Below are positions 24,284 to 40,239 of a stretch of 42,626 bases of DNA, one piece after another. Positions within the stretch are counted from its first letter, which is position 1. The number at the start of each line of letters is the position of its first letter. The stretch is from Eubacteriales bacterium (lineage in GTDB: Bacteria; Bacillota; Clostridia; Lachnospirales; Lachnospiraceae). Both the position numbers and the translations under genes were made by a program. The stretch is from positions 1 through 42,626 of the forward strand of contig JAUNGB010000043.1 in NCBI GenBank assembly GCA_030524715.1, written 5' to 3'. Below the pieces are notes generated by a model. It made no database searches. It was not told where the DNA came from and saw only the letters and a list, made by a program, of their open reading frames with translations.

Positions 24284-25411
24284 ATGAATGCAAATACTTT
24301 AAAACCGTCAAAAAAACTGGGCTTTGGTCTGATGCGTCTGCCGGTGCAGGAAGATAAATCCATCGATATCCCACGTCTGTGCGATATGGTAGATGCATTT
24401 ATGGAAAAGGGCTTTACATATTTTGATACGGCCTATGTTTACCATGAGGGAACCTCCGAGACAGCGGCAAAGGCTGCTCTGGTAGACCGTTATCCCAGAG
24501 ATACCTTTACTTTGGCTACGAAGCTTCCTGCGTGGGAAATTAAATGTCAGGAGGATGTACAGAGGATTTTTGATGAGCAGCTTGTACGTACCGGGGCGGG
24601 ATATTTCGATTATTATCTGCTTCATGCGGTACAGGCATCCAATCTTCCTGTTTATGATAAATATGATTGCTGGAACTGGGCGTTGAAGCTGAAGGAACAG
24701 GGACTTATCCGCCATTTTGGTTTTTCCTTCCATGATACGCCGGAGCTTCTTGACCGTTTATTGACGGAACATCCGCAGGTGGAGTTCGTTCAGCTTCAGA
24801 TCAACTATATGGACTGGGAGGACGGCAATGTCCAGTCACGCAAATGCTATGAAACTGCCGTGAAGCATCAGGTTCCGGTCATCGTTATGGAGCCTGTAAA
24901 GGGCGGCACGCTGGCATCCCTTCCGGAAAAGCCCGCCGCGATCCTGAAGGAATATGCGCCGGAGGTTTCCCTTGCTTCCTGGGCGCTGCGTTTCTGCGCT
25001 TCTCTTGACAATGTAATGGCAGTGCTGAGTGGAATGTCTGATGAGGCACAGATGAAAGATAACCTTTCTACTATGTCAGATTTTAAGCCGCTTACAGAAA
25101 AGGAACAGGAGGTCATAAAAAGAACTGTGGAGGAAATTCTTTCCGTTCCTACGGTGCCCTGTACGTCATGCCGTTATTGCGTGGACGGATGTCCCCAGCA
25201 GATTCATATTCCGGATCTGTTCCAAAGCCTGAATAAAGTAAAGCTTTACGGAGAGAACAAGCAGGCTTTCAATTCCTATGAGGAGCATTCCAAGGCAGGA
25301 AGCCCGGCGTCTGCGTGTATTCAGTGCGGACAGTGTGAATCCGTATGTCCCCAGCATCTGCCTGTTATAAAATATCTGGAGGAAGCAGCTTACACATTTG
25401 AACGCAGATGA
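24284..25411 (+). CDS. Aldo/keto reductase with C-terminal 4Fe-4S domain
   Basis: The 375-residue protein has an AKR barrel (residues ~10-270) with the catalytic tetrad motifs FDTAYVYHEG (Asp, Tyr), ATKLP (Lys) and YYLLHA (His). A ferredoxin-like tail follows with two cysteine clusters, CTSCRYCVDGCP (near residue 288) and CIQCGQCESVCP (near 343), fit to hold two 4Fe-4S centres. This architecture is common in anaerobic Clostridia and probably couples carbonyl reduction to electron carriers; its substrate is unknown. GAGAGG precedes the ATG. It is followed 68 bases later by the GH32 gene. Confidence 0.95.
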   Translation: MNANTLKPSKKLGFGLMRLPVQEDKSIDIPRLCDMVDAFMEKGFTYFDTAYVYHEGTSETAAKAALVDRYPRDTFTLATKLPAWEIKCQEDVQRIFDEQLVRTGAGYFDYYLLHAVQASNLPVYDKYDCWNWALKLKEQGLIRHFGFSFHDTPELLDRLLTEHPQVEFVQLQINYMDWEDGNVQSRKCYETAVKHQVPVIVMEPVKGGTLASLPEKPAAILKEYAPEVSLASWALRFCASLDNVMAVLSGMSDEAQMKDNLSTMSDFKPLTEKEQEVIKRTVEEILSVPTVPCTSCRYCVDGCPQQIHIPDLFQSLNKVKLYGENKQAFNSYEEHSKAGSPASACIQCGQCESVCPQHLPVIKYLEEAAYTFERR

Positions 25412-25431
25412 GCAAAGCGGAATGCGAACGT
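25411..25431 (+). repeat. Dispersed repeat, partial copy C
   Basis: Twenty of 21 bases match the 3' part of copy B (23911-23931). It starts at the last base of the aldo/keto reductase stop codon. The preceding TTGAACGCAGATRAGCA is also shared with the end of the phosphorylase-like gene (from about 21435). Confidence 0.55.
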
Positions 25432-25479
25432 CCGCATTATAGCAGAATAACTTGATAAGGAAAAGGAGTTTTATTTGAG

Positions 25480-26973
25480 ATGATAAGCCAGAAATTGGTA
25501 AATGCACGAGAATATGAAGCGAAAAAGGAGAAAGGGATTACCCCGGAGGAAAGACCGGCGTTTCACCTGTCTACCCGTGTAGGGTGGATGAACGATCCTA
25601 ATGGATTTTGTTATTATAACGGAGCGTATCATCTGTTCTACCAGTATCATCCCTATGATTCCCATTGGGGTCCCATGCACTGGGGCCACGCGGTGAGCAG
25701 GGATCTGCTGCACTGGGAGTATCTTCCGGCGGCATTGGCTCCGGATATGCCCTATGATAAGGACGGATGCTTTTCCGGAAGCGCCATGGAGCTTGAAGAC
25801 GGCAGACATATGCTGATGTACACGGGCGTGCGCAAGGAAAAGCAGCCGGACGGCACCCTGCGTGAGGTCCAGACTCAATGCATTGCTGTCGGGGACGGAA
25901 CGGACTACGAAAAATATGAGGGAAATCCGGTACTGGACGAAAAAGATCTGCCGGAGGGTTCCTGCAGGTTTGATTTCCGCGACCCCAAGATCTGGAGAAA
26001 AGAGGACGGCACTTTCAGATGTATTATAGGAAACTGCACGGAGGAAAGAGACGGCCGTATCCTTCTTTACAGCAGTGAGGACGGATACCATTGGAAATAC
26101 GAGAAGGTACTGGCGGAAAACAAGGGACGTTTCGGACAAATGTGGGAATGCCCGGATTTCTTTGAACTGGACGGAAAGTATGTTTTGCTGACAAGCCCCC
26201 AGGGAATGCTTCCGCAGGGACTGGAATACCATAACGGAAACGGTACGGTCTGCCTGATCGGGACGTACGATGAAGAGACGGAAACCTTTACGGAAGAGAG
26301 AAACCAGGCGATTGATTACGGAATCGATTTTTATGCGCCGCAGACCATTCTTACGCCGGAGGGACGAAGGATCATGATAGGCTGGATGCAGTGCTGGAGC
26401 ACAAGCGGCCTGCATTCTCCAAATCAACCCTGGTTCGGGCAGATGAACCTTCCAAGGGAGCTTTCCGTAAAGAACGGGCGTTTATATCAAAATCCCGTTC
26501 AGGAGCTTGAAAGCCTCCGCTGTCAGGGAGTAAAATATGAGAATGTTGACTTTGAGGATGACTGCATCTGTCTGGAGGGAATCGAAGGACGGACAATCGA
26601 TATGGAAGTGTCCGTTCGTCCGGGAAATGAAGCAGAATTATACCGTAAATTTACGGTACGGTTTGCGCAGGATGAAAATTATTATACGGCGTTCCATTTC
26701 TGGCCGGAGGATTCCATTGCAGAGGTTGACAGGAGATTTTCCGGTTCCAGGGAAGATGTCATCCATGAACGCCGTTGCTATGTAAACAGCGCGGACGGCA
26801 GCCTGAAGCTCCGTATCATTCTTGACCGCTTCAGCGCGGAAATTTTTGTGAACGACGGGGAGCATGCCCTTTCCCTGACTATGGAAACAGGACAGGAAGC
26901 AGACGGAATCAGCTTTGTGGCAGAAGGAGCCGTGGTCATGGATGTTGTGAAGTACGATTTATGTGTAGAATAA
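25480..26973 (+). CDS. Sucrose(-6-phosphate) hydrolase, GH32
   Basis: The 497-residue protein is a GH32 beta-fructosidase. It has the nucleophile motif WMNDPNG (Asp39), the transition-state motif FRDPKIW (Asp168) and the acid/base motif WECPDFF (Glu223), then a C-terminal beta-sandwich with AEIFVNDG. No signal peptide, so it cleaves imported sucrose, sucrose-6-phosphate or short fructo-oligosaccharides in the cytoplasm. AAAGGAG lies about 13 bases before the ATG. No sucrose transporter or regulator is adjacent; the upstream neighbour is the aldo/keto reductase. The gene ends at a strong bidirectional terminator. Confidence 0.95.
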   Translation: MISQKLVNAREYEAKKEKGITPEERPAFHLSTRVGWMNDPNGFCYYNGAYHLFYQYHPYDSHWGPMHWGHAVSRDLLHWEYLPAALAPDMPYDKDGCFSGSAMELEDGRHMLMYTGVRKEKQPDGTLREVQTQCIAVGDGTDYEKYEGNPVLDEKDLPEGSCRFDFRDPKIWRKEDGTFRCIIGNCTEERDGRILLYSSEDGYHWKYEKVLAENKGRFGQMWECPDFFELDGKYVLLTSPQGMLPQGLEYHNGNGTVCLIGTYDEETETFTEERNQAIDYGIDFYAPQTILTPEGRRIMIGWMQCWSTSGLHSPNQPWFGQMNLPRELSVKNGRLYQNPVQELESLRCQGVKYENVDFEDDCICLEGIEGRTIDMEVSVRPGNEAELYRKFTVRFAQDENYYTAFHFWPEDSIAEVDRRFSGSREDVIHERRCYVNSADGSLKLRIILDRFSAEIFVNDGEHALSLTMETGQEADGISFVAEGAVVMDVVKYDLCVE

Positions 26974-27105: not shown

Positions 27106-28296
27106 TTAGTATTTGTTGAAAATATCCTGTATTTCATTGATGTCATTTGTTACTGTAAGAGCCAATCTCAGCAGAACCGATGCTTTTTGAGGGGCAAGGT
27201 CATTCCCAAGTGCAAGATTTCCGAGAAAATAGTCGTCTTTGGTAATAAGACCAGAGGCGATTCTTGAGCATCGGATAACCGGGATACCGGTTTCTGACAG
27301 TTCATTTACTTTATCGTTCCAGGCAGCACTATAGCAACCGGAACCTGCTCCTGCAATGATAATACCTTTAGCGCCGTTTTCTACATAATAGTCAAGGACG
27401 CCTTCGTCTGCATCAATGGTAAAATATGCAACAGCTACGTCTGGCAATTCTGTGAGTTCAGAAATATCAAATTCCGTTTCGATAGTGTGAAGTTTGCTGC
27501 TTTCATTGTAGAAGTATGGTTTTCCTTCCAACATATATCCCATACAGCCAAAATCCTTGGAAGAAAATGCATCTGTCTGGAATGTGCTGATTTTCTGAAC
27601 ATCACGTCCTCCGTAAATGCCATCGGAGAATACTACCATGGAGCCGCGTCCAGATGCATCTTCACTTGCGGCAAGAGCAATAGACTGATACAGATTCATA
27701 GGACCATCAGCAGACGTTGCAGTGGAAGGACGCATAGCACCGGTCAAAACCACTGGTTTATCTGTCTTTACAGTCAGATTAAGGAAATATGCTGTCTCGT
27801 CTAACGTATCTGTTCCATGAGTTATGACAAAACCATCAATATTTTCGTCCTGTGCCATTTCATTGACAGTATTGGCAATTTGGATCCAATATGCGTCTGT
27901 AATATCGTCAGACCCTACATTGCATACCTGTACGCCGCGCACATTTGCAATTTCTGTAACTCCGGCAGCACTTTCTACAAGACTTCCGACATCTAGCTGG
28001 CCTGCGGAATAGTTAGTGGTTTTTCCTGCATCACCGGTACCTGCAATGGTTCCTCCGGTTGCGAGAACCGCTACTGTGGGTAAAGCTTCATTTTCTGTTT
28101 CTGAGACTGTTACGGATAAACCGCTTTCTGTTTCATAGAAGGTGTAACCGTCATCGGAGATTTTGGCTGTTTTATCAGCAGAAGTCACTGCTACTTCTCC
28201 GGAATTTTCTTCTTCGGCAAATGTGGTTACAGAGCTGCAGACAGTCCATGAGAGTGAAGCTGTGAGTAAAAGTGCCATGATCTTACGTGTTTTCAT
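27106..28296 (-). CDS. fraE: Secreted type II L-asparaginase of the fructose-asparagine locus
   Basis: From the ATG at 28296 (site AAAGGAAAAA upstream) the protein has 396 residues. I reject an upstream ATG at 28371 because 28296 gives a proper signal peptide (MKTRKIMALLLTASLSW, cleavage after TTFA). After a ~45-residue spacer, the asparaginase domain shows ATGGTIAGTG with nucleophile Thr83, Tyr96 in TTNYSAG, and the HGTDTLDET motif. Type II asparaginases make aspartate and ammonia. With a GntR regulator, SIS deglycase, Dcu transporter and PfkB kinase adjacent, this is the counterpart of Salmonella FraE, turning fructose-asparagine into fructose-aspartate outside the membrane. No lipobox is evident, so it may be released from the cell. 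Confidence 0.9.
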   Translation of the reverse strand: MKTRKIMALLLTASLSWTVCSSVTTFAEEENSGEVAVTSADKTAKISDDGYTFYETESGLSVTVSETENEALPTVAVLATGGTIAGTGDAGKTTNYSAGQLDVGSLVESAAGVTEIANVRGVQVCNVGSDDITDAYWIQIANTVNEMAQDENIDGFVITHGTDTLDETAYFLNLTVKTDKPVVLTGAMRPSTATSADGPMNLYQSIALAASEDASGRGSMVVFSDGIYGGRDVQKISTFQTDAFSSKDFGCMGYMLEGKPYFYNESSKLHTIETEFDISELTELPDVAVAYFTIDADEGVLDYYVENGAKGIIIAGAGSGCYSAAWNDKVNELSETGIPVIRCSRIASGLITKDDYFLGNLALGNDLAPQKASVLLRLALTVTNDINEIQDIFNKY

Positions 28297-28383
28297 TTTT
28301 ACTTTTTCCTTTCGATAAAAAATAATATGTTTGAAGGTATATATGTTTAAAGGTGGTGTGCACTCCCACATGTTAAAAAATAC

Positions 28384-28458
28384 AATAATACATTTTTAAA
28401 ATAAAATGTATTATTATGTATTTAATACAATAGTAAATTAAAAGCTTCGTATTGTCAA
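28384..28458 (-). promoter_or_regulatory. fraE promoter with two operators
   Basis: On the minus strand: TTGACA (28453-28458), 17-base spacer, TACTAT (28430-28435), directly followed by TGTATTAAATACA (28417-28429). A further perfect 13-bp inverted repeat (AATAATACATTTT, 28384-28396, and AAAATGTATTATT, 28403-28415) lies just downstream. Both are likely FraR sites. The rest of the 28297-28580 gap is AT-rich leader. Confidence 0.75.
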
Positions 28459-28580
28459 TGCTTTCTGCGAATTTGGCATTTTTTACAATTTTATATAAAG
28501 AAAATTAGGAAAGTTGCATAATGATATAAAACAAATGAGACTAACAATGTGGAAACAGGAAGAATAAAAGGCAGAAAGAT

Positions 28581-28626
28581 AAAACTCCTGAAAGAAAACA
28601 GATTAATGTTTCTTTTCAGGAGTTTT
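28581..28626 (-). terminator. Terminator after fraR
   Basis: AAAACTCCTGAAAG and its complement CTTTTCAGGAGTTTT form a strong stem immediately downstream of the fraR stop on the minus strand. Confidence 0.85.
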
Positions 28627-28637
28627 AAGGAAAAAGC

Positions 28638-29360
28638 TTATACCATTATTTTGAACTTGTCTCCGATACAAAGCTGCTGGCAAAGATTTGTAATAGTATC
28701 ATCTGTATTTTGTATTACACTATTGATGCGAAGCAGAGGATATCCTTTGGCAATGCCAAGAATTTTGGCTTCTTTTGAGGATGCAAACGTAATATCTATC
28801 GTCTTGGTGGAGTGCGACAAAAGAATATTATGTTTTGTTCTTAATAATTCAAATAGAGATGCATCATTCAGATTTTCACTGAATAAGAAGGAGAAGAATT
28901 CCGGAAATCTGTTTGTTTCCAGCAATACGGGCTTTCCGTCCGCATAGCGGATGCGTTCTAAAAGAATGATTTTTTCTTCGGGAGCCAGATGCATGAGTTC
29001 TGCTTCCTTTTCAGTAGGGTCTTCCAGGGCTATTTTTATGGTTTTGGCTCCTGGTGTAAAGCCTGTCATTTTACATAAATCTGAAAAACTGGTTACGCCG
29101 GAAATACCTCTTTGAAATTTTTTTTCTGCTACAAAGGTTCCTTTTCCAGATTTGCGCTCCAGATATCCCTGTTCGGAAAGCCCTGCCAAAGCCTTGCGTA
29201 CCGTAACTCTGCTTACATTGTATTGTTGACTTAACTCATTTTCTGTGGGAATCCGGCTTCCTACAGGGCGCTGGCCGCTTTCGATTTCCTGTTGGAGTTT
29301 ACTTTCCAACTGCTGATAGAGTGGTGTGGCGATTGTGTTGTCCAGTTCCATGTTAAACAC
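28638..29360 (-). CDS. fraR: GntR family regulator, HutC/UTRA type
   Basis: A 240-residue GntR/HutC regulator: winged helix-turn-helix at residues ~10-75 (NELSQQYNVSRVTVRKAL, then ERKSGKGTF) and a UTRA ligand-binding domain from ~95 to the end (PEEKIILLERIRYADGKPVLLE). UTRA domains bind sugar phosphates and related effectors; 6-phosphofructose-aspartate is the expected inducer by analogy with Salmonella fraR. It lies between fraE (same strand) and the divergent fraB. Palindromes at its own promoter and at fraE and fraA share an AATACA/TGTATT core, so it probably represses all of them including itself. Confidence 0.88.
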   Translation of the reverse strand: MFNMELDNTIATPLYQQLESKLQQEIESGQRPVGSRIPTENELSQQYNVSRVTVRKALAGLSEQGYLERKSGKGTFVAEKKFQRGISGVTSFSDLCKMTGFTPGAKTIKIALEDPTEKEAELMHLAPEEKIILLERIRYADGKPVLLETNRFPEFFSFLFSENLNDASLFELLRTKHNILLSHSTKTIDITFASSKEAKILGIAKGYPLLRINSVIQNTDDTITNLCQQLCIGDKFKIMV

Positions 29361-29387
29361 CTTTCTGCAATTATAGTAATAAATGAT

Positions 29388-29434
29388 AAAATGTATTGTC
29401 TGATATATTATAATACATTTTGCGCAAAATGTAT
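29388..29434 (-). promoter_or_regulatory. fraR/fraB intergenic operators
   Basis: A perfect 22-bp palindrome (29413-29434; arms ATACATTTTGC and GCAAAATGTAT) and a related half-site AAAATGTATT (29388-29397) lie upstream of fraR. They match the arms of the inverted repeat at fraE, marking likely FraR sites. Confidence 0.7.
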
Positions 29435-29474
29435 ATAGTCAAATGTTTTTTTGACAAAAAAGCGCAGAGGGATA

Positions 29475-29503
29475 TTGACTAATGTATTGCTTTGTATTAA
29501 TAT
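29475..29503 (+). promoter_or_regulatory. fraB promoter
   Basis: TTGACT (29475-29480), 17-base spacer and TAATAT (29498-29503). The motif TTGTATTAATATT (29492-29504), a diverged form of the fraE/fraA operator, overlaps the -10 box. Confidence 0.6.
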
Positions 29504-29559
29504 TACGTCAGAAATAAATGAATACAAAATAAAACAAAAAAACAAAAAGGAGAAAAACA

Positions 29560-30573
29560 ATGACGTACAAAAGTAGTGATATCAAGGCAATCGTTGCAGA
29601 AATTCTGGATGCAAAGAAAGACAAAGGAGGAGTAAATTCTCTTTACTTCGTAGGCTGCGGCGGTTCTCTCGGAGCGCTTTATCCGGCTAAGACCTTTATG
29701 GAAAGAGAAAGTGCAGCTATTAAATCCGCGTGGATTAACAGTAATGAGTTTGTTCACAGCACACCGAAGGATTTTGGGGAGAATTCCATTATTGTTCTTG
29801 CCTGCCATAAGGGAAACACACCGGAGACGATTGAGGCAGCAAAGCTTGGAAAAGAAAAAGGCGCGGCAGTTATTATTCTGACCTGGTTGGAAGAATCGGA
29901 AATTGTTGAATTTGGTGATTATATTGTATTATATTCCTTTGATGCAAGCCCTGATCATCTAGCAGGTGACATTGATTATTCCGGCGAAAAGACTATGTGT
30001 GCTCTTTATGTGGCAGTAGAACTTCTTGCACAGACAGAAGAAGGCTATGCAAACTACGATAAATTTTATGAGGGAGCAGGGATGCTTACTAACATTATCC
30101 GCAAAGCACGTGCTCATGTGGCAGAGCGTTCCCTTGCATTTGCAAAAGAATATAAAAATGATCCTGTAATTTATACGATGGGAAGTGGTGCTGCCTATGG
30201 TGCTGCTTATATGGAAAGTATCTGTATCTTTATGGAAATGCAGTGGCTGGATTCCAGTTCTATCCATACAGGTGAATTTTTCCATGGTCCTTTTGAGATT
30301 ACAGATGCTAACCGTCCGTTTATGATTCAGATTTCTGAAGGTACTACCCGCGAACTGGATGAGAGAGCACTGACATTCCTTAAAAAATATGCAAAACGTA
30401 TTGAAGTACTGGATGCTAAGGAACTTGGACTTTCTACCATTGATGCATCTGTTGTGGATTATTTCAATCATTCTTTGTTCAATAATGTATACCCGATTTA
30501 TAATCATGACCTTGCAACAGAACGTCAGCATCCGCTTTCGACACGCCGTTATATGTGGAAGGTTGAATATTAA
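29560..30573 (+). CDS. fraB: 6-phosphofructose-aspartate deglycase (SIS fold)
   Basis: The 337-residue protein is a two-SIS-domain deglycase of the FraB/FrlB family. Its first SIS domain shows GCGGSLGA and HKGNTPETI; the second shows MGSGAAYGAAYMES. Glu226 and His242 (in TGEFFHGPFE) keep the 16-residue spacing of the general base and acid reported, as I recall, for Salmonella FraB. The reaction splits the phosphorylated Amadori compound into glucose-6-phosphate and the amino acid. FrlB (fructoselysine) is the alternative, but the neighbouring asparaginase and C4-dicarboxylate-type transporter favour aspartate. AAGGAG precedes the ATG. A terminator separates it from fraA. Confidence 0.88.
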   Translation: MTYKSSDIKAIVAEILDAKKDKGGVNSLYFVGCGGSLGALYPAKTFMERESAAIKSAWINSNEFVHSTPKDFGENSIIVLACHKGNTPETIEAAKLGKEKGAAVIILTWLEESEIVEFGDYIVLYSFDASPDHLAGDIDYSGEKTMCALYVAVELLAQTEEGYANYDKFYEGAGMLTNIIRKARAHVAERSLAFAKEYKNDPVIYTMGSGAAYGAAYMESICIFMEMQWLDSSSIHTGEFFHGPFEITDANRPFMIQISEGTTRELDERALTFLKKYAKRIEVLDAKELGLSTIDASVVDYFNHSLFNNVYPIYNHDLATERQHPLSTRRYMWKVEY

Positions 30574-30635
30574 TAAAACCTGGGCTGCTTTTTGATTGGA
30601 TGGCAGGAGGCAACTGCACTTTCACGGCTTTTTAT

Positions 30636-30678
30636 GACCTCGGTGGAGAATATTCTTCGCTGAGGTTATATTTTTATT
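30636..30678 (+). terminator. Terminator after fraB
   Basis: GACCTCGGTGGAGAAT pairs with ATTCTTCGCTGAGGT through Watson-Crick and wobble pairs, followed by TATATTTTTA. The 30574-30966 gap otherwise holds the fraA promoter and no gene. Confidence 0.8.
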
Positions 30679-30810
30679 ATAAAGGAACGGCATCTGGAGT
30701 GGATTTAATGTAATATATAAGGGAGATGCTTTTAATGTATTACTGATTGTGAAAAACATATAAAAACAAATTGTAAATTTTATGAAACACGCTGAAAAAA
30801 CTTTTCTGTA

Positions 30811-30853
30811 TTGACAAAAATCGACTATGAATATATGATTGTATTAAATACAA
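30811..30853 (+). promoter_or_regulatory. fraA promoter and operator
   Basis: TTGACA (30811-30816), 17-base spacer, TATGAT (30834-30839), directly followed by the 15-bp palindrome TTGTATTAAATACAA (30839-30853). Fourteen of these bases are identical to the fraE site in the same position relative to the -10 box. Confidence 0.85.
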
Positions 30854-30966
30854 AGCAATACAAATGGATACAATATAGTTCTAAGGGATTGCGGAGTGTT
30901 AGTGGTTAAGGAGAGCGCGCATTTCTTTATGGACACAAAAAACAAAAAATTTAAGGAGGATCTACT

Positions 30967-32286
30967 ATGTTTTGGATTGAATTGATTCTTGTCCTTGCAA
31001 TTATTTTCCTGGGTGTACGTGTTGGCGGAACATTTCTTGCAATGGCTGGCGGTGTTGGAATGTTTATCATGACTTTTATCTTTCATGTTACTCCTTCGGA
31101 CCCGCCTATCACAGTAATTTTGATTATGATTGCCGTTATATGTGCGGCATCTACCATGCAGGCATGCGGAGGGCTTGACTATCTTGTTAAGATTGCCGAA
31201 AAAATTCTTCGTAAAAACCCGAAAATGGTTACGGTTCTTGCCCCTATCGTAGCATATATTTTTACATTTATGTGTGGTACCGGCCATATTGTTTATAGTT
31301 TACTTCCGGTTATTAATGAAATTTCTATTGAGACAGGCATTCGTCCGGAACGTCCGATTTCTGCGTCAATTATCTCTTCTCAGCAAGCGATCACCGCGTG
31401 CCCGATTTCGGCGGCAACAGTTGGAATTTTGGCTTTTATGGCAGAGTCACAGTATACAAGTGTAAATATATTTACTCTGCTTCTTGTCTGCATTCCAGCT
31501 ACATTGATCGGAACTGTTGCAGCAGCTCTGTCCGTAATCAAAAAAGGTAAAGAGCTTGCAGATGATCCGGAATTTCAAGCACGTGTTGCAGAAGGACGTA
31601 TTGAAGATTTCTCTAAAAAACATGCAGAAGAAAGGGAAACTACAAAAGAGGCAAAAATTTCTGTTGCTATTTTTATGATCGCTATGGTCGGTATTGTATT
31701 ACTGGGTGCAGTAAACAAACTGGTTCCCACTCTTTCAGACGGATCCAAGCTTCCTCTGACAACTGTAATTGAAATATTCATGTTGGTAGCTGCAGCAATA
31801 ACAGTTATCGTTACAAAGCTTGACAGCAATAAGGTGTTGGACCAGCCGGTATTCCGCACAGGTATGTTTGCAGTGGTTCTTGCGTTTGGACTGTGCTGGC
31901 TGGTAAACACATTTATTGGTGATCAGTCTTCCTTTATTACAGAAAATATGTCAGAATTGACAAACCAGTATCCATGGATTTACATCATTGCAGTATTTAT
32001 CGTAGGAGCAATTACAACCAGTCAGTCTTCCACAACCATGATTATGGTTCCTATTGGGATTGCATTGGGACTTCCTGTAAACATTATCGTGGCAGGATGG
32101 CTTGCATGCTCTTCCAACTATTTTATTCCGGCTTCCGGACAGTGTGTTGCTGCAATTGCTTTCGATTCGGCGGGAACTACGAAGATTGGAAAGTTTGTAT
32201 TGAATCACAGTTATATGCTTCCGGGACTTGTATGTACGGTAGTATCGGTTATCGTTGCTATTGTACTTGGAGCGGTTGTTTTCTGA
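30967..32286 (+). CDS. fraA: Dcu-family transporter, probable fructose-aspartate importer
   Basis: The 439-residue membrane protein belongs to the anaerobic C4-dicarboxylate (DcuA/DcuB) family: about ten to eleven helices, the conserved TGHIVYSLLPVI near residue 105, RPERPISASI, and a C-terminal ACSSNYFIPASGQ segment. Ordinary Dcu proteins exchange fumarate, succinate and aspartate. In the Salmonella fra locus the transporter FraA is also of C4-dicarboxylate type. Its placement between the deglycase and kinase genes and its shared operator with fraE suggest import of fructose-aspartate. AAGGAGG precedes the ATG. It starts the fraA-fraD-33355-33780 transcript. Confidence 0.87.
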   Translation: MFWIELILVLAIIFLGVRVGGTFLAMAGGVGMFIMTFIFHVTPSDPPITVILIMIAVICAASTMQACGGLDYLVKIAEKILRKNPKMVTVLAPIVAYIFTFMCGTGHIVYSLLPVINEISIETGIRPERPISASIISSQQAITACPISAATVGILAFMAESQYTSVNIFTLLLVCIPATLIGTVAAALSVIKKGKELADDPEFQARVAEGRIEDFSKKHAEERETTKEAKISVAIFMIAMVGIVLLGAVNKLVPTLSDGSKLPLTTVIEIFMLVAAAITVIVTKLDSNKVLDQPVFRTGMFAVVLAFGLCWLVNTFIGDQSSFITENMSELTNQYPWIYIIAVFIVGAITTSQSSTTMIMVPIGIALGLPVNIIVAGWLACSSNYFIPASGQCVAAIAFDSAGTTKIGKFVLNHSYMLPGLVCTVVSVIVAIVLGAVVF

Positions 32287-32422
32287 ATCTGGGCTGCCGC
32301 TAAGCTTTAATAAGCCGCAGTCCGGCATCTGAACTGTATTTAGGTGTACAGACTGCGGTTTTGGTTTATAGAATTAGATTGAGAAATAGAATTCTTTAAA
32401 TAAAAGGAGGACAAACACAAAA

Positions 32423-33310
32423 ATGGAAAATTGCAGGATTATTGCTATTGGGGACAATGTATGTGACAAGTATCTTTCCAGAGGAAAAATGTACCCGGGC
32501 GGACAGTGCGTGAATACATGTGTATACGCTGTAATGAATGGCGCTAAAGCAGCATATCTGGGAAAATACGGAAATGATGAGGTTGCAGCGTGTGTGCAGG
32601 ATACTTTAAAGGCAATCGGGATTGATGACAGCAGATGCCGCCATTTTGAAGGAGAAAATGGGTTTGCGCTGGTAACCTTAAAGGGAAATGACCGTGTATT
32701 CCTTGGTTCTAATAAAGGAGGAATTGCCAAAGAGCATCCGTTTGATTTTACGGAAGAGGATTTTACATATATAAAGGGCTTTCATTTGATCTATACAAAT
32801 TTAAACAGTTATATAGAAGAAAATCTTCCGGAACTGAAGGAGACGGGCGTACCGATAGCATATGATTTTTCAACCAGATGGACAGACGGATATCTGGAAA
32901 AAGTATGCCCGTATATTACTGTGGCAATTTTATCCTGTGCTCACCTGTCAAAAGAGGAGCGTGAGAGAGAAATGAAGAAGGTACAGTCTTACGGTGTCCC
33001 GGTTGTGCTTGGAACAGTCGGTGAGGATGGCTCTTATGTGCTTTATAAAGATGAGATTCTTTATGCAAAGGCTGTATATGCAGAGGATGTAATTGATACT
33101 ATGGGAGCAGGCGATTCATATTTTACAGCCTTCTTATGCTCTCTTCTGGAATCTTCTCAGACAGGCGCCATTGCGGAAGGGGATGATGAGAAAATGAAAG
33201 AACGTCTTCAGGATGCAATGGACAGGGGAGCTTCTTTTGCAGCACGTGTCTGTGCAATGGAAGGTGCATTCGGCTATGGTACTCCCGTACTTGGAAAAAC
33301 GGAAATATAA
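32423..33310 (+). CDS. fraD: PfkB family kinase, probable fructose-aspartate 6-kinase
   Basis: The 295-residue protein is a ribokinase/PfkB sugar kinase. It has the N-terminal signature GDNVCDKYL and YPGGQCVNTCVYA, and the C-terminal DTMGAGDSYFTAF carrying the catalytic Asp and anion hole. Among PfkB proteins it resembles FrlD/FraD, which phosphorylate fructosamine-type amino acids on the 6-hydroxyl. AAAGGAGG precedes the ATG. It follows fraA by 136 bases and is followed by a small unknown protein and a HAD phosphatase. Substrate assignment rests on context. Confidence 0.87.
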   Translation: MENCRIIAIGDNVCDKYLSRGKMYPGGQCVNTCVYAVMNGAKAAYLGKYGNDEVAACVQDTLKAIGIDDSRCRHFEGENGFALVTLKGNDRVFLGSNKGGIAKEHPFDFTEEDFTYIKGFHLIYTNLNSYIEENLPELKETGVPIAYDFSTRWTDGYLEKVCPYITVAILSCAHLSKEEREREMKKVQSYGVPVVLGTVGEDGSYVLYKDEILYAKAVYAEDVIDTMGAGDSYFTAFLCSLLESSQTGAIAEGDDEKMKERLQDAMDRGASFAARVCAMEGAFGYGTPVLGKTEI

Positions 33311-33354
33311 GCAACAAGCTTATAAATAAAAGCAAAAAAGAAAGGAAAACAAAA

Positions 33355-33768
33355 ATGAAACCAGATATTTACGAAAACAATGGAGAAGGAATCCTGTGTG
33401 TGTACAAAAATGAAAAATGGCTTGTCTGCATTAAAAACTGGAAGCCGGACAATGATATCGAAGGAATTGCACATCTGGAAATTCATCACTCTACAGACGA
33501 GCAGTTTATTCTTGCAGCAGGTAAGGCTATTTTAATTACTGCAGAAAAAGAAAATGACAGGTTTCAGATTGAACTTACTTTAATGGAGCAGGGAAAAGTT
33601 TATAATGTTCCCAAAGAAGTATGGTTCTATTCCATTACTCAGAAGGACACAAAGATGATGTATGTGCAGGACTCTGACTGTTCTATGGAAAATAGTGATT
33701 TTATGGATCTTTCCCCGTCAGAGATTGCATATATTCAGGAAACAGCGCGCAAATTGTTTGCAGAGTAA
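33355..33768 (+). CDS. Small protein of the fra locus, 137 aa, possibly cupin-like
   Basis: A soluble 137-residue protein with no signal peptide. Several alternating beta-type segments (ILCVYKNEKWLVCIKNW, FILAAGKAILITAE, KVYNVPKEVWFYSI) resemble a single cupin barrel, with HHSTDEQFILAAGKA near residue 43 as a possible cupin motif 1. It could be a sugar-binding or isomerase-type accessory. I do not recognise a named family. It lies between fraD and the HAD gene, 12 bases from the latter, in one transcript. Salmonella's fra locus has no counterpart that I know of. Confidence 0.7.
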   Translation: MKPDIYENNGEGILCVYKNEKWLVCIKNWKPDNDIEGIAHLEIHHSTDEQFILAAGKAILITAEKENDRFQIELTLMEQGKVYNVPKEVWFYSITQKDTKMMYVQDSDCSMENSDFMDLSPSEIAYIQETARKLFAE

Positions 33769-33779
33769 TCGGAAGCCGT

Positions 33780-34430
33780 ATGAAAATAAAGTATGTTTTG
33801 TTTGATTTTGACGGGGTAATTGCAAATACTGAGGAAAGTAATGCAGAGTATTTGAAAAAAGCTCTTAAAATTCATGGAATTGCGCTGAATGATGAGGACA
33901 GAAAAGTTTTAATAGGAACCAGTGATCGTTCCAGACTTCGGAAAATTCTGTCCAGAGATGGAATTTCCATTACTATGGAGGAGTTTGCAGACACCCGAAA
34001 AAAAGTGGGAAATACGTATGAGAACAGTGATATACACCCTTTGCCGGGGCTGATTCCCATGATTCTCTGGCTTCGTAAAAATGGAATAAAAACTGCAATC
34101 GCTACGTCCACAACTACGAAGCTGATTATTGTGGCCCTGAACCGGATGGGAATGAGTTCCATGTTTGATGCTGTAGTCTGTGGAGATATGTGTACCGAAA
34201 GTAAACCAAGTCCACAGATATATCAAAAGGCTATGGAATATCTGAGCGCTGTGCCGGAGGAATGTGTTGTGATTGAAGATTCTGCACCTGGCATACATGC
34301 CGGAAAAGCCGCAAATGCTTATGTGATTGCTTATTGTGGCTCCGGTATAAAACAGGATATTCATGAAGCAGATTTTTCAGCAGTTACTTATGAAGAGTGC
34401 AGGGAAAAATTGAAGGAACTCATTATATAA
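33780..34430 (+). CDS. HAD hydrolase, beta-phosphoglucomutase-like
   Basis: A 216-residue HAD phosphatase of the beta-PGM/GPP subgroup: motif I FDFDGVIANTEE at residues 7-18 with the nucleophile Asp, an alpha-helical cap, motif II (IATST), motif III lysine (ESKPSP) and motif IV IEDSAPGIHAG. It starts 12 bases after the preceding gene with a weak ribosome binding site, so it is probably translationally coupled. In this locus it might dephosphorylate phospho-Amadori intermediates to limit sugar-phosphate toxicity; this is inference. A terminator follows. Confidence 0.85.
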   Translation: MKIKYVLFDFDGVIANTEESNAEYLKKALKIHGIALNDEDRKVLIGTSDRSRLRKILSRDGISITMEEFADTRKKVGNTYENSDIHPLPGLIPMILWLRKNGIKTAIATSTTTKLIIVALNRMGMSSMFDAVVCGDMCTESKPSPQIYQKAMEYLSAVPEECVVIEDSAPGIHAGKAANAYVIAYCGSGIKQDIHEADFSAVTYEECREKLKELII

Positions 34431-36057: not shown

Positions 36058-36179
36058 TTGACTGAATTTCCCTGATTTATATACAGACTGTGGGAAAACA
36101 ACTTGTCTGCAAGTATCTACAAGTATTATACTGGTTATATACTACAGGATATTATTGTGTTTATACGGGGGAGAAGAAA

Positions 36180-37796
36180 ATGCTGAAGGTTTTTCTGGTA
36201 GAGGATGAAGCGATCATAAGAGAGGGGCTGCGGGACAGTATTCCGTGGCAGCAGTACGGATATACCTTTGTGGGGACCGCCGGGGACGGGGAGCAGGCGC
36301 TTCCCATGCTGCATGAGCTGCAGCCGGACGTACTGATCACAGACATTAAAATGCCTTTTATGGACGGTCTGGCTTTAAGTAAGCTGGTAGCCAAGGAATT
36401 TCCCAAAACAAGGATCATTATCATCAGCGGATATGATGATTTTGAGTATGCAAGGCAGGCGGTGGGAATAGGCGTGGAGCAGTATCTTCTCAAGCCTATA
36501 TCAAAAGCGATGCTTATTAAGACCCTGCAGGAGGTACAGGAAAAGATCCAGAGCGAACGGGAGCAGGAGAATTATATGGAAAAATTCCGCAGTGAGGTTC
36601 AGGAATACGAGCAGTTTTCCCGCAGGCGCCTTTTTGAAGAGATTGTGGCAGGGCAGCTTTCCGTGGAAGAAATCTATGAACGTGCGGGACAGCTCAGTAT
36701 GGATATCCATGCGCCCTGCTATAACCTGGTGCTTTACAGCCTCCAGGCGAAAAACAGCGGCGCTGCCGGAACCGGGGATTCTCTCACAAAGATCCGGGAC
36801 GAGCTTTTGCAGTTCCTTCTGGAGTATCCGGAATATCTTCCGGTACGCCAGAACCTGACAACCTATGCCGTACTTATCAAGGGCGACCGGGAGCAGGTGG
36901 AAATGTATACAGCCAGATGTATAGAAATGGTCCGGAATATTGCCTCAGACATCAGCGAGGCGGACTGGCATGTGGCGTCCGGCACGCCTGTTACGCGTTT
37001 GAGCTCGCTGCCGGAGTGCTATGCGGAGGTCAGCCGGATGCTGTCCTATCGCCATCTTCTGGTAAACCGCCATATACTCACAAAGGAAAGTATCGAAAGC
37101 ATGACCCCCGGCGATGAGGAAAGCAGCCTGAAAAACCTTGACATGGCCAAAATCGACCCGGCCATTCTGCGGGGCTTTCTGCAGAACGGGCAGCCCCAGG
37201 AGGTGGAGGGATTCGTCACAGAATATATCAGAAGCCTGCGGGACGCCGCCAAATCCAAACTTTTCTGCCAGTATCTGATGCTGAATGTACGTTTTACCGC
37301 GATCGCTTATGTGGAATCTCTGGGATATACGCAGGAGGAATTTTTGGATTCCCTGGAATGCCTGAAAATGACAGGACAGAACGTCTCCACAGAAGAGCTG
37401 CATAAATATATTACGGAAATGCTCAGCCGCGGACTGGAAATGCGGGAAAAAGAAACCATGAGCAAATCCCGCAGCATTGTATCACAGGCAGTTGCTTACA
37501 TAGACGAGCATTACGCGGACGAAAATATTTCTCTTGGGGAAGTGGCCGGTTATACAAATGTGAGCGCAAACTATTTCAGCGCCGTGTTCAGCCAGGAAAT
37601 GCAGCAGACCTTTGTGGAATATCTGACAGGCAAACGTATGGAAAAGGCCCGTGAGCTTTTGCGGAAAACAGATAAGCGTTCCGCGGAGATCGCCCTTGAG
37701 GTGGGCTATAAGGATCCCCATTATTTCAGCTTTGTATTCCGTAAGACTCAGGGCTGTACGCCCAGGGACTACAGGACGGGAGGAAAACGTTCATGA
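36180..37796 (+). CDS. Response regulator, YesN type (REC plus AraC HTH)
   Basis: A 538-residue regulator from the ATG at 36180 (GGGGGAGAAG upstream); an in-frame ATG at 36090 lacks a site and would add a non-conserved tail. The receiver domain has VEDE near residue 8, phospho-acceptor Asp55 in VLITDIKMP and YLLKP. A ~270-residue middle region follows, as in YesN, then two AraC-type helix-turn-helix motifs at the C-terminus (VAGYTNVSANYFSAVFSQ and IALEVGYKDPHYFSFVFRK). Its stop overlaps the kinase start by 4 bases. It probably activates the sugar ABC transporter starting at 41993. Confidence 0.94.
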   Translation: MLKVFLVEDEAIIREGLRDSIPWQQYGYTFVGTAGDGEQALPMLHELQPDVLITDIKMPFMDGLALSKLVAKEFPKTRIIIISGYDDFEYARQAVGIGVEQYLLKPISKAMLIKTLQEVQEKIQSEREQENYMEKFRSEVQEYEQFSRRRLFEEIVAGQLSVEEIYERAGQLSMDIHAPCYNLVLYSLQAKNSGAAGTGDSLTKIRDELLQFLLEYPEYLPVRQNLTTYAVLIKGDREQVEMYTARCIEMVRNIASDISEADWHVASGTPVTRLSSLPECYAEVSRMLSYRHLLVNRHILTKESIESMTPGDEESSLKNLDMAKIDPAILRGFLQNGQPQEVEGFVTEYIRSLRDAAKSKLFCQYLMLNVRFTAIAYVESLGYTQEEFLDSLECLKMTGQNVSTEELHKYITEMLSRGLEMREKETMSKSRSIVSQAVAYIDEHYADENISLGEVAGYTNVSANYFSAVFSQEMQQTFVEYLTGKRMEKARELLRKTDKRSAEIALEVGYKDPHYFSFVFRKTQGCTPRDYRTGGKRS

Positions 37797-39235
37797 GTTT
37801 TTGGAAACGTACCCCGGGGGAGAATCCAGTTACACTGGAAAGCAGGATACGCAAGCTGACGATCATGTTTGTGATACCCGTGCTCGTGCTATTGCTATTG
37901 ACCTTTTCCGTTTTGTTTTCCTACAGCAGTAATTATCTGGATATCCTTCATAATGTGACGACGGCCTCAGAGTTTAACCAGGATTTTAAAGAGGATATCG
38001 ACCTGAAAATGTACTACTATGTTGTGGACAGCCATTACTCCGAGGGGCTTCCCATTGAACAGGTACAGGATGCCCAGAAGCTTGCCAAAAGCCTTTTGGA
38101 CACCACCACCAAGCGTGAGAGTTACAAGGCCATCAATGATGTGCTGAATCTCTGCCTGAATCTGGAAAGCAAGATTTATCAGATCGAGGAAACCAAAAGC
38201 TACGACGACAGGCAGCAGCAGTTGGAAAATAATATCTATGTCCTGACTTCCCTGATCCAGGATTATATGTATAATTATCTGTATTATGAAGCGTCCCGGC
38301 TGAATGATCTGCAGGAGGAAATGACGCGGCAGTTATATATCGAAGCGGCTATTGTCCTTGTGGTGGGGGTCGGTGCTTTTATGATCCTGTTCCGATTGCT
38401 GATGCGGTTCGGCCATTCCATCACCTCTCCGGTAAGCGAGTTGTGCCGGCGTGTCCAGGCCATCAGCGACGGCGACCTGACTGTGCAGACGCCTATCGCT
38501 GCTGAAGAGTACGAGATCCAGATGCTGAGCGACGGGTTTGAAAAGATGGTCGGCAGACTGAACCAACTGATTGAACAGAACCGTCAGGAGCAGATCAGCC
38601 TGCGGAGCGCGGAGCTCGCCCTTCTGCAGGCGCAGATCAACCCGCATTTTCTTTATAATACGTTGGATACGATCATCTGGCTGATCGAAACGGAGAAATA
38701 TGAACAGGCAGTAGATATGGTAACAAGCCTTTCGGGGTATTTCCGTTCCTCGTTGAGCAAGGGCAGGGATATCATTACTCTCCGGGAGGAAGAGCAGCAT
38801 GTGAGAAGCTATCTGGAAATCCAGCACGTACGCTATAAGGATATTCTGGAATACAGGATAGAAATTCAGCCGGAGCTTGCCATGTATGAGATTCCCAAGC
38901 TCACCCTTCAGCCCCTTGTGGAGAACGCCCTGTATCACGGCATTAAGCTGAAACGCGGTCTTGGTATGATTTCCGTAAAGGGCTATGAAGAGGGAGAGGA
39001 TATCTGGCTTGTAGTGTCGGATAACGGCGCGGGAATGGATGCAGAGCGTCTGGAAGAGGTCAGAAAATCCATACGCAAGGAGCAGAGGGTCGGCTTCGGG
39101 CTTTCTACGGTGCATGAGCGGCTGCAGCTCTGGTTTGGGGCAGAGTATGGCCTTTCTATTGATAGTATGCCGGGAGAAGGAACGACGGTACGTGTGAAAA
39201 TTCCGAAACAGACAGAAAGAGGGAATCAGGGATGA
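37793..39235 (+). CDS. Sensor histidine kinase, YesM type
   Basis: A 480-residue membrane sensor: transmembrane helix 1 (~25-48), an extracellular helical sensor region (~50-175, rich in Tyr), transmembrane helix 2 (~180-205), a HAMP domain (RFGHSITSPVSELCRRV), and a His_kinase domain with phospho-acceptor His285 in QINPHFLYNTLD, then an HATPase domain with the N-box LVENALYHG. It overlaps the regulator upstream and the binding-protein gene downstream by 4 bases each. That tight coupling suggests that the lipoprotein binding protein and kinase form one sensor complex. Confidence 0.94.
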   Translation: MSFWKRTPGENPVTLESRIRKLTIMFVIPVLVLLLLTFSVLFSYSSNYLDILHNVTTASEFNQDFKEDIDLKMYYYVVDSHYSEGLPIEQVQDAQKLAKSLLDTTTKRESYKAINDVLNLCLNLESKIYQIEETKSYDDRQQQLENNIYVLTSLIQDYMYNYLYYEASRLNDLQEEMTRQLYIEAAIVLVVGVGAFMILFRLLMRFGHSITSPVSELCRRVQAISDGDLTVQTPIAAEEYEIQMLSDGFEKMVGRLNQLIEQNRQEQISLRSAELALLQAQINPHFLYNTLDTIIWLIETEKYEQAVDMVTSLSGYFRSSLSKGRDIITLREEEQHVRSYLEIQHVRYKDILEYRIEIQPELAMYEIPKLTLQPLVENALYHGIKLKRGLGMISVKGYEEGEDIWLVVSDNGAGMDAERLEEVRKSIRKEQRVGFGLSTVHERLQLWFGAEYGLSIDSMPGEGTTVRVKIPKQTERGNQG

Positions 39236-40239
39236 GACGGTTGGGAAAGCTTTGGAAAGGAATTGCGGCAGGGGCTGCGGCGGCAGTTCTTCTTGGGGGC
39301 TGCGGCCGGCCTGCAGACGACAGCCAGGAAAAGGATAAAAACCTGATCGTGGTGGGATTTTCTGAGGTAGGGGCAGAGTCGGACTGGCGTGTGGCAAATA
39401 CGGAGTCCATGCGGAATACCTTCGTGGAAGAAAACGGCTATGAGCTGATGTTTAATGATGCCAAGCAGAAGCAGGAAAGCCAGATTCTGGCTATCCGTAA
39501 TTATATTTTGCAGAAAGTGAATTATATTGTTCTTGCCCCGGTTATAGAAGAAGGGTGGGAAGAAGTCCTTCAGGAGGCAAAGGATGCAGAAATCCCCGTT
39601 ATTGTGGTAGACAGGAGAGTTAAGGTAGAGGATGACAGCCTGTATACCGCATGGGTAGGCTCTGATTTCCGTAAGGAAGGCGATATGGCGGTGGAATGGC
39701 TGGAAGAAGAGCTGGAAAAGCAGGGCAGGGAGGATGAGGAAATCAATATCCTGCACGTGCAGGGAACTGCAGGCGCTTCCGCCCAGCTAGGACGTACGGA
39801 AGGACTTGAGGCAGGGCTTAAGAAGCACAAAAACTGGAACAGGGTCGCAACGCTTCAGGGGGAATTTACCCAGGCAAAGACCTATGAGGTGGTTCTGGAC
39901 TTTCTGGAATCCGGCAAGGCTGCGGATGTGATCTACTGCGAAAATGATAATTCCGCATTCGGAGCAATTCAGGCTCTTGAGGAAGCCGGGGTAAGCTACG
40001 GGACGGACGGAGACGTTATGGTGATTTCCTTTGACGCTACCAGGGCAGGGCTTCAGGACTGTCTGGAGGGGAAGATTAATGTGGACGTGGAGTGCAATCC
40101 CCTGCATGGTCCCCGAGTGGAGAGCATCATCCAAAAACTGGAGGCAGGGGAAACCCCGGAAAAAGAATGGTATGTGGAGGAAACCTATTTTACTGCGGAT
40201 AATCTCAGCGAGGAATTTATCGAGGCAAGGGAATATTAA
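39232..40239 (+). CDS. Sugar-binding lipoprotein, YtfQ-like, probable kinase partner
   Basis: A 335-residue substrate-binding protein of the Peripla_BP_4 (RbsB/YtfQ) family. Signal peptide with lipobox LGGC (Cys23-25 region), then GFSEVGAESDWR, the hinge strands and AWVGSDF, GRTEGLEAG and NDNSAFGAIQALEEAG. Related proteins bind galactofuranose, fructose or other pentose/hexose sugars. It overlaps the histidine kinase gene by 4 bases and lacks adjacent permease genes, so its role is probably ligand presentation to the kinase. It is a close paralogue of the binding protein at 41993. A terminator lies 60 bases after its stop. Confidence 0.92.
   Translation: MRRLGKLWKGIAAGAAAAVLLGGCGRPADDSQEKDKNLIVVGFSEVGAESDWRVANTESMRNTFVEENGYELMFNDAKQKQESQILAIRNYILQKVNYIVLAPVIEEGWEEVLQEAKDAEIPVIVVDRRVKVEDDSLYTAWVGSDFRKEGDMAVEWLEEELEKQGREDEEINILHVQGTAGASAQLGRTEGLEAGLKKHKNWNRVATLQGEFTQAKTYEVVLDFLESGKAADVIYCENDNSAFGAIQALEEAGVSYGTDGDVMVISFDATRAGLQDCLEGKINVDVECNPLHGPRVESIIQKLEAGETPEKEWYVEETYFTADNLSEEFIEAREY

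Follow-up and report, generated by a model that had tools for sequence, protein, structure and literature searches.

A likely fructose-asparagine utilisation (fra) locus with a shared promoter-operator in a Lachnospiraceae bacterium

Gene content and layout of the locus

Fructose-asparagine (F-Asn) is a sugar-amino acid compound of heated foods. The DNA analyzed here, called the window, comprises the 42,626 nucleotides of contig JAUNGB010000043.1 (assembly GCA_030524715.1, genome G000 below) of a Eubacteriales bacterium belonging to the Lachnospiraceae. Positions 27106-34430 of the window harbour what is, judged from sequence, probably an F-Asn utilisation locus, the Gram-positive counterpart of the fra locus of Salmonella. 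All five fra functions are present as intact open reading frames (ORFs) with strong family matches. The fraE gene (27106..28296, minus strand) encodes an AnsB-type asparaginase of 396 amino acids (aa). Its ORF is open from 28371, and the ATG at 28296 is the likelier start: AAAGGA lies upstream of it, and the protein then begins with a hydrophobic segment that looks signal-like when judged by eye. FraE scores 381.5 bits with the type II asparaginase model TIGR00520 (cut-off 314.3) and contains the asparaginase motifs TGGTIAG and HGTDT. It is preceded by a promoter-operator (28407..28459, minus strand) of the form TTGACA-17-TACTAT, overlapped by ATTGTATTAAATACA (28417-28431). The fraR gene (28638..29351, minus strand) encodes a GntR/UTRA (HutC-type) regulator and starts more likely at ATG 29351 than at GTG 29360. 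A control region of fraR and fraB (29352..29559) contains TAAAATGTATTGTCT (29387-29401) and TGTATTGCTTTGTATT (29483-29498) and leads to fraB (29560..30573, plus strand), coding for a SIS protein predicted to be a deglycase of 6-phosphofructose-aspartate (6-P-F-Asp). A terminator-like hairpin of 17 pairs with a T-rich tail follows fraB (30633..30670, plus strand) and has the longest stem among the terminator-like sites listed for the window. The remaining genes all lie on the plus strand: behind a promoter-operator (30810..30875; TTGACA-17-TATGAT, ATTGTATTAAATACAAAGCAATACAAATGGATACAATA) come fraA (30967..32286, Dcu-family transporter), fraD (32423..33310, PfkB-family kinase), a 137-aa ORF (33355..33768) orthologous to CA_C3497 (PDB 3d0j) and possibly coding for a cupin, and a gene for a HAD hydrolase resembling beta-phosphoglucomutases and phosphatases (33780..34430). 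As classes, terminator-like sites are not enriched in the window (6 against 5.4 expected) and promoter-like sites are mildly enriched (33 against 22.5 expected); no Rfam match was found within the window at gathering thresholds.

An earlier sequence-only reading of this DNA had described adjacent asparaginase, GntR/UTRA, SIS, Dcu and PfkB genes, with fraE and fraR on one strand, fraB alone and then fraA-fraD. The intact ORFs and family matches confirm the five functions, and order and strands are as described, though two further genes, the 137-aa ORF and the HAD gene, had gone unnamed. Its description of the asparaginase as secreted agrees with the signal-like N-terminus and the asparaginase motifs. 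The grouping is not a product of chance: these genes are found together near FraB homologues in many other genomes.

Descent and distribution of the fra proteins

Residues E226 and H242 of the window FraB occupy the places of E214 and H230 in Salmonella FraB, of which H230 is presumably catalytic. E214 is described as catalytic in the available part of PMC12755824, where E214A is a mutant of Salmonella FraB. PDB entry 9otj, labelled merely 'SIS domain protein', shares 60% identity with the window FraB. At chain residue 234, 9otj has E and chain 9otu has A, which corresponds to E214A if numbering is shifted by 20, and the 9otj chain is nearly identical to Salmonella arizonae FraB (tree branches of 0.016 and 0.0074); 9otj is therefore taken to be Salmonella FraB. 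Among solved deglycases this protein scores highest against the window FraB (426.7 bits), followed by 3fkj (322.6) and 3eua, the FrlB of Bacillus subtilis (265.4). We take 3fkj to be a Gfr-type deglycase of Salmonella; its database text reads 'putative phosphosugar isomerases'. In a careful tree of 52 rows, from which E. coli FrlB with its very long branch was omitted, the window and Salmonella FraB belong to one clade of 34 rows (support 100/99), with 3fkj and B. subtilis FrlB outside. A quick tree of 125 rows agrees, with a FraB clade of 78 rows (Shimodaira-Hasegawa-like approximate likelihood ratio test, SH-aLRT, 99) and E. coli FrlB far off. The rows were collected by likeness to FraB, and the limits of the clade mirror that sampling. 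The nearest named relatives, among the matches listed, belong to Lachnospiraceae and other Clostridia.

Related loci were sampled with a two-member FraB alignment against the contigs of 84,980 species, which yielded 237 relatives; the best 80 were kept and represent 78 loci. This sample is ordered by likeness to FraB, and contig ends cut some of its loci. The loci were grouped by hand into 41 core clostridial loci, 13 of Bacilli and Mitsuokella, 12 of Pseudomonadota and 12 other FraB-clade loci (7 of Lachnospiraceae or Clostridium, 2 of Oscillospiraceae and 3 of Spirochaetaceae). Counted by record title, at least 63 loci with FraB homologues are from Bacillota, among them those of Roseburia faecis, Faecalibacterium hattorii and Ruminococcus torques. 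All 13 loci of Bacilli and Mitsuokella and all 12 of Pseudomonadota harbour fraA, FraR and a FraD-like kinase. The core and other groups harbour fraA in 31/41 and 0/12 loci (56/78 overall), FraR in 32/41 and 5/12, and a FraD-like kinase in 40/41 and 8/12; the kinases of core loci L040, L042 and L054 are merely 40-41% identical and lie beside a second SIS gene.

The window FraD shares 42.0% identity with FraD of Salmonella arizonae and belongs to a supported set of 51 Gram-positive and spirochaete kinases from FraB loci. E. coli FrlD pairs with the second PfkB protein of many clostridial loci, across a supported split from FraD (SH-aLRT 99). Both deglycase and kinase are thus set apart phylogenetically from their frl counterparts, and the outcome that the sequence-only reading had named as refuting it, FraB and FraD placed within a fructoselysine clade, did not occur. 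This bears on the possibility of a fructoselysine- or glucoselysine-type (frl/gfr) locus, to which the combination of SIS, PfkB and GntR genes would fit as it is the frl gene set. The best NCBIfam models for the two enzymes are indeed fructoselysine-6-phosphate deglycase (93 bits) and fructoselysine 6-kinase (172.6 bits), both scores being below the cut-offs of 430 and 247. The FraB and FraD trees disfavour this reading, as does the presence of a Dcu-type transporter and a coregulated asparaginase rather than the FrlA-type permease of E. coli, and it is regarded as highly improbable.

FraA matches the DcuA_DcuB family with 464.8 bits and is 48.4% identical to FraA of Salmonella arizonae, against 38% to DcuA and DcuB. 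In its tree 52 rows from FraB loci (the window and 51 others) are split, with an SH-aLRT of 97, from three DcuA/DcuB rows (DcuA, DcuB and the DcuA-like second copy of L076). The window FraR, with GntR and UTRA domains, is 45.3% identical to its Salmonella arizonae counterpart. The FraB clade, the separation of FraD from FrlD and that of FraA from DcuA/DcuB together support the interpretation as a fra locus that had been proposed from the sequence.

Several observations weigh against this interpretation, most of them concerning the asparaginase. FraE resembles E. coli AnsB (45.8% identity) no less than it does FraE of Salmonella arizonae (42.4%), and a tree of 12 rows, with L040, L059 and both L072 pieces left out, does not unite the window FraE with that of Salmonella. 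Forcing the five fra asparaginases together was mildly rejected in this tree (approximately unbiased test, p-AU 0.03). A direct orthology with Salmonella FraE is thus unsupported; the tree, small as it is, fits separate captures of asparaginases. With minimum values of 38% identity and 40% coverage, 6 of the 78 sampled FraB loci have a linked asparaginase and the other 72 have none, which by group amounts to 2/41 core clostridial loci, 1/13 of Bacilli and Mitsuokella, 3/12 of Pseudomonadota and 0/12 others. Eleven of 12 fra-bearing clostridial genomes, searched whole, lack a close FraE relative: one, the genome with a linked copy, holds a close FraE (72%), six hold distant proteins (30-33%) and five none at E 1e-20. 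In addition, the join between Gram-positive and enterobacterial FraD is weak (81) and includes four kinases of other loci, and the 12 other FraB-clade loci are without fraA, so that the substrate cannot be read from membership of the FraB clade by itself. The asparaginase and the transporter had been proposed as marks separating fra from frl loci. The asparaginase is a weaker mark than proposed, because it is not sister to Salmonella FraE and 72 of 78 loci lack a linked copy.

Since linked asparaginases and close FraE relatives are so scarce, the Gram-positive core pathway may serve fructose-aspartate (F-Asp) or another glycated acid. In its explicit form, this alternative holds that FraA, FraD and FraB serve F-Asp or a related glycated acid such as fructose-glutamate, and that a few lineages acquired the asparaginase at a later stage, adding F-Asn or merely supplying aspartate. 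Besides the asparaginase counts and the tree, this view is in line with Paenibacillus, Lacrimispora and others having the fra core but no fraE. On the other side, fraE bears the fraA operator in the window and in L016 (see below), which makes F-Asn use the simplest reading here, and other asparaginases, cytoplasmic or less similar, could serve elsewhere, such as those of 30-33% identity in six of the 12 genomes. The alternative is considered unlikely. AnsB is also described as converting F-Asn to F-Asp (available part of PMC12755824), and an AnsB-type enzyme of other descent can therefore do the work of FraE.

Two linked asparaginases call for a remark. In Samsonia (L070:17037) about 4.6 kb separate it from fraA, which is on the opposite strand, and it may have nothing to do with the fra genes. 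In the Mitsuokella locus (L072:7996-8391) it is split over two reading frames.

Among 393 genomes drawn from the order, a FraB-like SIS protein was found in 34 at E 1e-30, with at least 60% identity in two only (the window's own and G424) and at most 43% in the rest. Among 37 genomes of the genus, true FraB occurs in the window's own genome and in G029 (96%), other hits reaching at most 46%, and fraE is found in the same two genomes (E 1e-30). As few genomes of the order and genus carry true FraB, fra is patchy and may have spread by transfer. G029 has the same locus with other flanks.

The sampled loci also vary in content. Many clostridial fra loci have an extra cassette between fraA and fraD (e.g. 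L017:11968-17262), which in L017 encodes by Pfam a xylose-isomerase-like epimerase, BtpA, an FGGY kinase, an amidohydrolase, a UPF0047 protein and a second PfkB kinase. The amidohydrolase, UPF0047 and second PfkB genes each occur in 22 of the 41 core loci and BtpA and FGGY in 16; the window lacks the cassette. In L040, L042, L054, L056, L059 and L062 fraA is absent and the FraB-clade gene has as its neighbour, on the opposite strand, a second SIS gene of 40-42% identity; such paired loci are possibly a system for another glycated compound. Two copies of fraB are found in L046 (L046:9001-9987 and 11981), L048 (L048:1316 and 9001) and L030 (L030:301 and 5164).

The window's own locus is preceded (24284-26973) by a gene for an aldo-keto reductase containing ferredoxin domains and by one resembling GH32 sucrose-6-phosphate hydrolases, which are not common to the close relative L016; an AraC-type response regulator, a histidine kinase and a periplasmic sugar-binding-type protein are encoded on its 3' side (36090-40239). 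The assembly G000 measures 5.28 Mb with 5.02% contamination, the genus mates listed being 1.6-5.1 Mb; in view of both values, membership of the contig in G000 is not fully certain.

Shared promoter-operator sequences

A repeat search revealed that the control regions of fraE and fraA match over 53 nucleotides, 39 of which are identical counted from the -35 hexamer. The next best 53-mer in the window, with 30/53 identities, lies on the opposite strand across the fraA promoter itself, and the best elsewhere has 29. The promoter-like TTGACA-17-TATGAT of fraA fits the promoter pattern at 11 of 12 positions, and at both genes the 15-bp core ATTGTATTAAATACA starts inside the final two bases of the -10 hexamer. 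This core, picked after the repeat had been seen, was found three times in the window when up to two mismatches were allowed (0.08 expected); one of the three is the fraA site read on the opposite strand. In the whole genome (5,275,956 bases) it is exact at just the fraE and fraA sites; copies with one mismatch lie on other contigs at G000:C154:32837-32851 and G000:C159:29160-29174, and the reversed control of the core has no such match in the 5.28 Mb genome.

The fraB gene shares in this pattern. The operator half AATACAAAGCAATACA, which neighbours the core, recurs exactly and inverted before fraB, where TGTATTGCTTTGTATT is the exact inverse of a fraA operator half. At up to three mismatches AATACAAAGCAATACA has 7 matches in the window (0.71 expected), and TAAAATGTATTRTYW, common to the fraR-fraB and fraE control regions, has 2 (0.03 expected).

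In relatives of at least 60% identity the core was found, at up to three mismatches, within 350 nucleotides upstream of fraA in 18 of 26 loci against 2.0 expected from mononucleotide shuffles, with duplicate loci dropped. Among the 18, L092 and L036 have it at other distances from fraA than the rest. Upstream of FraE it occurs in two of three loci (0.6 expected; none in L035), and upstream of FraB in 8 of 44 (2.3 expected). A 24-nucleotide degenerate operator was built from these same sites, which makes the test circular in part. Nine of 12 genomes contain a single perfect match to it; with up to three mismatches allowed, it has 15 matches in total and its reversed control has 6. The congener L016 has the operator at both fraA and fraE.

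Because fraE and fraA share a promoter-operator that is also conserved before fraA in other clostridia, the asparaginase is probably a member of the fra regulon. The confinement of the site to the fra gene group suggests FraR as its putative binder. Papers on a FraR operator, on the asparaginase as a regulon member or on a link of CA_C3497/3d0j to fra were not found in searches of open-licence papers. The operator offers a sequence test for pathway membership of genes.

These sequences also bear on the view that the locus combines asparagine or aspartate use and C4-dicarboxylate transport with an Amadori deglycase and kinase that lie beside it by chance. The likeness of FraE to AnsB and the 38% identity of FraA to DcuA/DcuB would be expected in that case. 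The control sequence of fraA is common to fraB and fraE, FraA clusters with 51 other transporters from FraB loci and is separated from the three rows of DcuA/DcuB, and fraA lies within the FraB locus in 56 of the 78 sampled cases. Operator specificity, promoter identity and the FraA tree thus disfavour plain asparagine or C4-dicarboxylate use, which is very unlikely.

The 137-aa protein, the proposed pathway and known systems

The 137-aa ORF has no Pfam match even at E 10. It matches CA_C3497 of Clostridium acetobutylicum (PDB 3d0j) over its full length with 120 of 137 residues identical (profile E 1.1e-78). CA_C3497/3d0j is listed without a function; its glycerol-bound cleft is said to resemble sugar sites, and sugar binding was suggested from this likeness (PMC3892921, available part). 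The 137-aa ORF is present in the fetched stretch of 38 of 44 Bacillota loci with fraA. In four of the other six the stretch ends where the ORF would lie or earlier, and it is present elsewhere in these genomes with 85-89% identity; in the remaining two, Paenibacillus ottowii and Mitsuokella, a genome search gave no relative at E 1e-20. The ORF thus accompanies FraB and fraA in 42 of 44 sampled Bacillota. It was found in none of the fetched stretches of the 12 Pseudomonadota and 12 other FraB-clade loci; L049, on a short contig, has it without fraA. A HAD relative (at least 40% identity) occurs in 21 of 41 core clostridial loci and in 0 of the 37 others.

Members of the 137-aa family match the WbuC cupin model (22/39, best E 0.00023, below cut-off) and, weakly, the ureidoglycolate lyase model (9/39), and the family profile weakly matches a cupin dioxygenase (E 0.017). 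These weak cupin matches, together with the invariant residues E42, H44, E49, Q50 and G56, suggest a cupin. At E 1e-10, 16 of the 393 genomes of the order contain a relative, in most cases outside a fra locus. Those of L137-L140 and L143 (46-52% identity) follow genes for a GntR regulator and for transport. A Pfam scan of selected genes of L139, L140 and L143 gave for L140 the order solute-binding protein, two permeases, split transketolase, 137-aa relative and transaldolase. As relatives occur in such other sugar operons, the family is not confined to Amadori compounds. Linkage to fra offers a concrete, testable role for a solved structure of undescribed function.

It may be speculated, tentatively and with more doubt than confidence, that the overlooked CA_C3497/3d0j protein is needed in Gram-positive catabolism of Amadori acids, either as a mutarotase-like cupin that opens the ketose ring or as a holder of toxic 6-P-F-Asp, and that asparaginases were captured more than once into a FraR regulon built for F-Asp. 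A ring-opening role is proposed because what the partner enzymes (FraB; split transketolase and transaldolase) have in common could be a need for the open-chain form of a ketose or its phosphate.

For the window locus as an F-Asn system, substrate and enzyme activities are predicted by homology as follows. Secreted FraE would strip the side-chain amide of F-Asn outside the cell, yielding F-Asp and ammonia, and FraA, a Dcu-type carrier, would import F-Asp. FraD would then phosphorylate the sugar of F-Asp at C6 and FraB would cleave 6-P-F-Asp to glucose-6-phosphate and aspartate. FraR may repress three putative units, namely fraE, fraB and fraA-fraD-137-aa ORF-HAD, through ATTGTATTAAATACAAAGCAATACA-type operators overlapping the -10 hexamer. 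Placing fraB as its own unit ahead of the kinase gene would limit the level of toxic 6-P-F-Asp. Of the last two proteins, the 137-aa one is likely to bind a substrate or intermediate by its sugar moiety, and the HAD hydrolase may remove phosphate from sugar phosphates present in excess.

A clostridial fra locus as such is already known. Reportedly, the primary paper on F-Asn-using species and the fra homologues of Clostridia is that of Sabag-Daigle 2018. The sequence-only reading had mentioned reports of such loci in a few Clostridia, and fra homologues in Clostridia are indeed in print (PMC10100877, PMC12755824; available parts). Gut Clostridia are described as consuming dietary F-Asn until the inflammation caused by Salmonella removes them, and FraB has been proposed as a narrow drug target (available part of PMC12755824). 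The FraB homologues in the Bacillota loci counted above bear on the selectivity of a FraB-directed drug.

In Salmonella, FraE is periplasmic, FraD makes 6-P-F-Asp and FraB cleaves it; fraB mutants accumulate 6-P-F-Asp, which is held to be poisonous (PMC4941530, PMC10100877, PMC4072780; available parts). The position of fraB before fraD was suggested to limit the toxic intermediate (PMC4941530, available part). The window and fraR-fraBDAE of Salmonella enterica share all five functions and the order of fraB before fraD, with identities of 59-60% for FraB, 48% for FraA, 45% for FraR and 42% for both FraD and FraE. They differ in that in the window fraE and fraR are on the other strand, fraB apparently forms its own unit, fraA precedes fraD, FraE seems to be of other descent within the AnsB-type asparaginases (small tree), and the 137-aa and HAD genes are extra. 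Other clostridial fra loci have the FraB clade in common with the window, and the sampled ones share fraR, fraB, fraA, fraD and the 137-aa ORF, but most lack a linked fraE and 22 of 41 core loci have the extra cassette. For the 137-aa ORF the known counterpart is CA_C3497/3d0j, matched over its full length. B. subtilis FrlB (3eua) and 3fkj are the nearest solved deglycases after FraB, yet fall outside the FraB clade. The frlABCDR system of E. coli likewise has a SIS deglycase, a PfkB kinase and a GntR regulator; its FrlB and FrlD fall outside the fra groups, and it harbours the permease FrlA and the epimerase FrlC rather than a Dcu carrier and an asparaginase.

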